Positions 8,110 to 8,284 of a stretch of DNA of 27,434 nucleotides are shown piece after piece. The DNA is taken from the IMG/VR virus record IMGVR_UViG_3300028388_003230, positions 9,714-37,147 of that record; one strand, written 5' to 3'. The notes under the pieces are model-generated. The model saw nothing but the letters and a program-made list of their open reading frames with translations, was not told where the DNA came from and searched no databases. How positions within the stretch are numbered: the first letter of the stretch is position 1; every line of letters starts with the position of its first letter. Source of the DNA: a virus. The position numbers and the translations under genes are program-made.

Positions 8110-8284
8110 TACCGTTCGTCGGGCATATACTACCGTTCGTCCCCGCAAGTTGGTCCAAATCCTGCATAAGGCCCGACGAACGGTATCATTCGGCCGACGA
8201 ACGGTACATTCTATTGTGCAGTGCAACATGGGCACGCAGGTTGCATAAAGCCGATGAACGGTAGTGATCCACTGACGGACGGTC
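8110..8284. repeat. Paired iteron-like repeats, consensus CCGACGAACGGTA
   Basis: Six related 14-base sites: 8110-8123 and 8131-8144 in one orientation (TACCGTTCGTC), and 8172-8185, 8193-8206, 8250-8263 and 8271-8284 in the other (the last diverged). Within each of the three pairs the step is exactly 21 bp, about two helical turns. Two sites share a longer flank (TGCATAA before 8172 and before 8250). The array lies between divergent genes, as expected of a replication-origin iteron set or a cooperative operator. Confidence 0.8.

Follow-up and report, generated by a model that had tools for sequence, protein, structure and literature searches.

Which protein would read a set of short repeats placed between two divergent transcription units of a virus, and to what end? 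This question is raised by a 27,434-nucleotide stretch of IMG/VR virus record IMGVR_UViG_3300028388_003230 (positions 9,714 to 37,147; the whole stretch is called the window here), in which six copies of one element form three pairs at 8110 to 8284, next to a gene for a 212-residue protein. With a probability of roughly 0.68, we read the array as AlgR/LytTR-type boxes, arranged in three tandem pairs within a divergent control region of the phage and bound by a host AlgR-type regulator at promoters. Paired AlgR-type sites recur in many unrelated phages, often beside promoter-like sequence, which suggests that these phages may turn their genes on through a signalling protein of the host.

The repeat array and its likeness to AlgR boxes

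An earlier note on this DNA described three pairs with a step of exactly 21 bp and an inverted first pair. We found the same arrangement, with the plus-strand copies starting one base later than given there (8173, 8194, 8251 and 8272). The 13-mer CCGACGAACGGTA is perfect in three of the six sites (8110, 8173 and 8194), and not one copy but three have diverged, namely 8131 (GGGACGAACGGTA, two mismatches), 8251 (CCGATGAACGGTA, one mismatch) and 8272 (CTGACGGACGGTC, three mismatches). Neighbouring pairs lie 42 and 57 bp apart from start to start; the second distance agrees with the earlier value, the first had been put at 41 bp. The best common core is the 11-mer GACGAACGGTA, exact in four sites, with one mismatch at 8253 and two at 8274:

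8110 to 8120, minus strand: AlgR-type box, pair 1 proximal (GACGAACGGTA); its core reads as the AlgR box CCGTTCGTC on the other strand
8131 to 8141, minus strand: AlgR-type box, pair 1 distal (GACGAACGGTA), 21 bp upstream of the proximal box
8175 to 8185, plus strand: AlgR-type box, pair 2 distal
8196 to 8206, plus strand: AlgR-type box, pair 2 proximal
8253 to 8263, plus strand: AlgR-type box, pair 3 distal, one mismatch (GATGAACGGTA)
8274 to 8284, plus strand: degenerate AlgR-type box, pair 3 proximal (GACGGACGGTC)

The array is not a product of chance. Among 300 first-order Markov versions of the window, none held a same-strand pair at 21 bp with up to one mismatch, and at most two sites fell within 180 bp, compared with five observed. 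The whole 37,147-base record has only one further site within one mismatch of CGACGAACGGTA, and this site is single. Directly before pairs 2 and 3 stand TGCATAAGGCC (8163-8173) and TGCATAAAGCC (8242-8252), respectively.

Read on the opposite strand, the core GACGAACGG is exactly CCGTTCGTC, the AlgR box of algD-RB1/RB2 and algC-ABS1 in Pseudomonas aeruginosa (PMC4064291). The same source describes LytTR regulators as recognising two direct repeats of 8-13 bp each, about 12 bp apart. Repeats of 9 bp at this distance give a period near 21 bp, and all three window pairs have this form (9 + 12 = 21-bp step). The 9-bp core CCGTTCGTC occurs in the window four times exactly and twice with one mismatch. 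It is identical to that of the P. aeruginosa sites, whereas the window boxes stand in tandem with a 21-bp step, match the consensus fully or nearly so, and belong to phages. The tandem sites of AgrA, VirR, PlnC/PlnD and FsrA share the two direct repeats about 12 bp apart, but belong to bacterial regulons, while the window boxes lie in putative phage promoters. The recognition sequences of these four groups of regulators also differ from that of the window. Phage genes in Alphaproteobacteria are reportedly controlled by host CtrA; there, too, phages would carry sites for a host response regulator, although regulator family, site and hosts are others. Among the matches listed in a literature search of partial coverage, no report joined AlgR boxes to phage promoters; the passages on AlgR found in an atlas of P. 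aeruginosa factors made by high-throughput systematic evolution of ligands by exponential enrichment (HT-SELEX; PMC8041468) contain no motif letters.

The same recognition sequence might be read by another host or phage protein. AraC/XylS-type activators use direct half-sites about 21 bp apart, and both this spacing and the position fit the pairs. Since PF12833 was found in none of 31 virus records and the 9-bp core has the same sequence as the published AlgR box, an AraC/XylS-type regulator was dropped as a candidate. The spacing also matches the LytTR family, and we regard another protein of this kind as highly improbable, bearing in mind that identity over nine bases is by itself modest evidence.

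Recurrence of the pair and the nature of its binder

A search of other viruses for repeats with the 21-bp spacing, proposed in the earlier note, recovered the exact pair in IMG/VR. A scan for GACGAACGGTA in two exact copies, at a distance of 11 to 41 bp, returned 40 loci with 41 pairings, 34 of them at 21 bp, five at 22 bp and one each at 19 and 34 bp. In the same scan, the reversed motif gave two loci, as did the pair with its first copy inverted; this everted orientation was the one covered by the orientation controls. In the 84,980 species genomes, 28 loci were found; of their 30 pairings 10 were at 21 bp, and two of these loci (L034 and L053) appear phage-like on reading. When the 9-mer core alone was used, 62 loci new to the list contributed at least 17 pairings at 21 bp, with each other spacing reaching at most eight among the matches listed.

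Cultured phages carry the boxes as well. Stenotrophomonas phage Sonora has four pairs at 21 bp, each made of one exact box and one with a single mismatch. At three of them (L098), annotated genes are oriented against the GGTA direction of the pair, and on the far side lies TTTACT, followed after 16 or 17 bp by TATACT or TAGAGT. In Pseudomonas phages we found single boxes. Pbunavirus cory has five, of the form GACGAACGGT[A/T], all in gaps between annotated genes; the Pseudomonas syringae phage Ulina01 has one, ahead of its first annotated gene, with TAGAAT at +25 and TAGACA 17 bp before it. A BLAST search with one pair as query matched 68 phage records, 63 of them from Pseudomonas phages; among the best 40 of the 68 matches, the Pseudomonas ones covered about half of the query, that is one box, at E values of 0.6 to 8. 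The same kind of query against plasmids returned four matches, all weak and unconvincing.

In a survey of 194 host genomes, tandem boxes with up to three mismatches were found at 11 places in 10 genomes, one of them exact. These are fewer than in the reversed-pattern control columns (about 58, counted by hand), and therefore the chromosomes of the surveyed order hardly use the tandem form. Unrelated Pseudomonadota phages may have convergently built stronger paired AlgR sites that are rare in host chromosomes, so that the AlgZR state (surface and pilus signalling) would set early expression; we hold this extension to be somewhat doubtful.

As to the binder, a LytTR gene or domain was detected in none of the 34 records of viruses and phages examined, which include the window's own and many fragments, while five of nine bacterial genomes holding a pair have a LytTR gene. 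Together these results make a host protein the likely binder. At three loci that were read (L081-L083), an AlgZ-like kinase gene adjoins each LytTR gene, the kinase and hemC names being given by eye from the sequence; of the three LytTR proteins, the other two share 44% and 41% identity with the first. A Chitinophagaceae metagenome-assembled genome (MAG) locus, L039, was rejected as a case of autoregulation because its pair lies beyond the 3' end of the LytTR-like open reading frame (ORF). We find support for the part of the earlier proposal by which one protein unit spans both direct sites of a pair, two helical turns apart, in a divergent control region.

A regulator encoded by the phages themselves was considered and rejected, as an all-against-all comparison of 508 ORFs near pairs, most of them compared only with each other, found no family common to all. 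An alanine-rich early-protein family in five groups came out of it, besides terminase families. ORFs near pairs in five context groups (L018, L022, L032, L069 and L073) share a motif resembling LNxGQQxMNxxNxxR. No relatives of the 212-residue protein, which the earlier note had put forward as initiator or binder, were detected among phage records or in IMG/VR, and none of the 508 ORFs matches it; because the pair is widespread and the protein lacks such relatives, a role as common binder is unlikely for it.

The earlier note also considered a replication origin. On this reading the sites would be iterons for an initiator encoded by the phage, which might be the 212-residue protein, and host DnaA would assist it. 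Origin iterons of plasmids and phages are short direct repeats at about two helical turns, and the window repeats resemble them in this respect. One exact TTATNCACA match, the DnaA-box-like TTATACACA, lies nearby:

8404 to 8412, minus strand: DnaA-box-like TTATACACA, which bears on the origin question only

Near 46 pair contexts, TTATNCACA occurs six times against 1.07 expected from the same loci (in the window and in L008, L012, L023, L034 and L053), twice almost directly after the last box (L008 and L034); as this expectation comes from whole loci and not from intergenic DNA, the enrichment may reflect the intergenic location of the pairs. On the other hand, 40 of the 46 contexts have no DnaA box nearby, and window-wide DnaA-box-like matches with up to one mismatch are at chance level (17 against 18.4). 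Moreover, other pairs have no relative of the 212-residue protein near them, Sonora carries four separate pairs, and the window array differs from iterons in having no recognised initiator and in sharing its sequence with unrelated phages. Since the core equals a known transcription-factor box, an origin is not needed to explain the array, and we consider it unlikely and less probable than promoter boxes.

Promoter-like sequence around the pairs

If the repeats are AlgR-type boxes, two protomers of a host response regulator would occupy each pair, on the direct repeats with their 21-bp step. In the preferred geometry the regulator would sit just upstream of a poor -35 element and help the host sigma70 polymerase to use the -10. 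Pair 1 of the window would then drive the 212-residue gene, and pairs 2 and 3 would face the opposite transcription unit. Three points here are inferred: AlgR orthologues bind the boxes, their binding is activating, and one of them is encoded by the host of this virus. The sequences concerned are:

8081 to 8086, minus strand: predicted -10 TATACT, +24 past the pair 1 proximal box; inferred start site about 8074
7392 to 8030, minus strand: ORF of 212 residues, predicted target of pair 1; no family
8305 to 8310, plus strand: weak -10 candidate TACGAT, +21 past pair 3, read from the sequence (four of six positions as in TATAAT)

The TATACT is absent from a consensus promoter scan, and its -35 is poor (CTATCG). 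The term master switch, used earlier for the array, holds in part, because comparable pairs often adjoin promoter-like sequence and pair 1 fits a promoter.

We examined a discovery set of 31 distinct contexts, obtained after removal of 11 duplicates and one short context, which includes window pairs 1 and 2 as well as L034 and L053. The best -10 hexamer lay at +20 to +27 in 18 of these, compared with 5.3 ± 2.1 in shuffles, which preserved base composition only (0 of 1000 reached this count). When a -35 was required, 13 of 31 had the -10 at +22 to +27 (shuffles 3.1; 0 of 500). In this forward class, the -35s are often poor. A mixed held-out set of 20, made of 10 metagenomic pairs, four Sonora pairs and six single boxes (L062 and L075, already in the discovery set, were excluded), gave seven forward cases against 3.3 (36 of 1000 shuffles), and 10 cases of either geometry against 4.8 (18 of 1000). 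Within it, six of the 10 metagenomic pairs have the -10 at +23 or +24, a subset picked afterwards. In the reverse geometry, the -10 lies at +32 to +36 on the other side of the pair; this was seen in nine of 31 discovery contexts against 2.9 (2 of 500 shuffles).

Several observations weigh against our reading. The promoter intervals were picked after looking at the first set, and the best -10 is outside the interval in 13 of its 31 contexts, window pair 2 among them. A looser held-out set based on the 9-mer core (20 contexts after removal of one duplicate) yielded five forward cases against 3.4 expected, which is not significant (124 of 500 shuffles), and five reverse cases against 1.9 (15 of 500); several of its pairs look like chance matches and all were retained, and three contexts (L115, L116 and L172) are common to both held-out sets. 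In the mixed set, the forward geometry was found in one of the six single-box rows of cory and Ulina01 (Ulina01 only) and in none of the four Sonora pairs, and the reverse geometry in three of 20 against 1.9, again not significant (271 of 1000). Four of the nine pair-holding bacterial genomes gave no LytTR match, although these are MAGs and may be incomplete, and some of their pairs may be chance. Finally, the host sites of AlgR itself are usually not tandem (PMC4064291). Taken together, support for the forward geometry is good in the set of exact pairs and modest in the later data, and the reverse geometry is tentative. Helical phasing of the reverse promoters found no support (17 strong cases, R 0.29, p about 0.24).

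The bound regulator might instead repress phage genes, or the boxes might titrate it as a decoy. AlgR is known as a repressor too, with a site at -28 of rhlI (PMC4064291), and window pair 2 has no good -10, as would suit an operator or a decoy. The preferred position of the pairs upstream of the -35, which leaves the -10 free, is by contrast activator-like, as are the often poor -35s of the forward class. Repression or titration by a host LytTR-type regulator seems improbable to us.

Exact sigma54-like TGGCAC-N5-TTGC was found near pairs seven times against 0.74 expected from whole loci, an excess that intergenic bias may explain in part, as it may for TTATNCACA. Sequences of the type TGGCACG-N4-TTGC lie close to pairs in L010, L013, L018, L020 and L022 and in the window:

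8230 to 8244, plus strand: sigma54-promoter-like GGGCACG-N4-TTGC, between pairs 2 and 3, one mismatch

If activation by a host AlgR-type regulator is correct, many phages, among them cultured ones of Pseudomonas and Stenotrophomonas, would have their early genes under the control of a well-studied bacterial signalling regulator, and phage infection would be tied to the signalling state of the host. Paired boxes would then be a sequence marker suggesting AlgR-bearing hosts for metagenomic phages. Since cultured phages of both genera are among the carriers, the idea is testable at once with algR deletions.

Neighbouring genes and other features of the window

The plus-strand side of the control region begins with the following genes:

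8527 to 9081, plus strand: HNH endonuclease with an AP2-like region, first gene on this side
9452 to 10288, plus strand: thymidylate synthase (thyA)
10288 to 12033, plus strand: terminase large subunit (GpA type)

The terminase did not serve to infer a host, as its nearest relatives share only about 30% identity with it. On the other side, the 212-residue ORF is preceded by a ribosome-binding-like AGGAG at 8039-8043. It has nothing over any cut-off in Pfam, PHROGs or NCBIfam, with DnaB-like matches below threshold only (E 0.014 and 0.082), and its structure model is too poor to judge the fold (mean predicted local distance difference test score, pLDDT, 51.7). An 853-residue ORF (1903-4464) matches nothing in Pfam or PHROGs, even with E values of up to 0.1 admitted. 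On the 3' side of the 212-residue gene, three tandem 38-bp copies, each with an AT-rich inverted repeat, are followed by two hairpins (7173-7286, 7288-7329 and 7346-7376); these are perhaps stacked terminators. Just upstream of the predicted -10 of the same gene lies the palindrome-like GTCAAGTATTGAC (8087-8099), a possible second operator.
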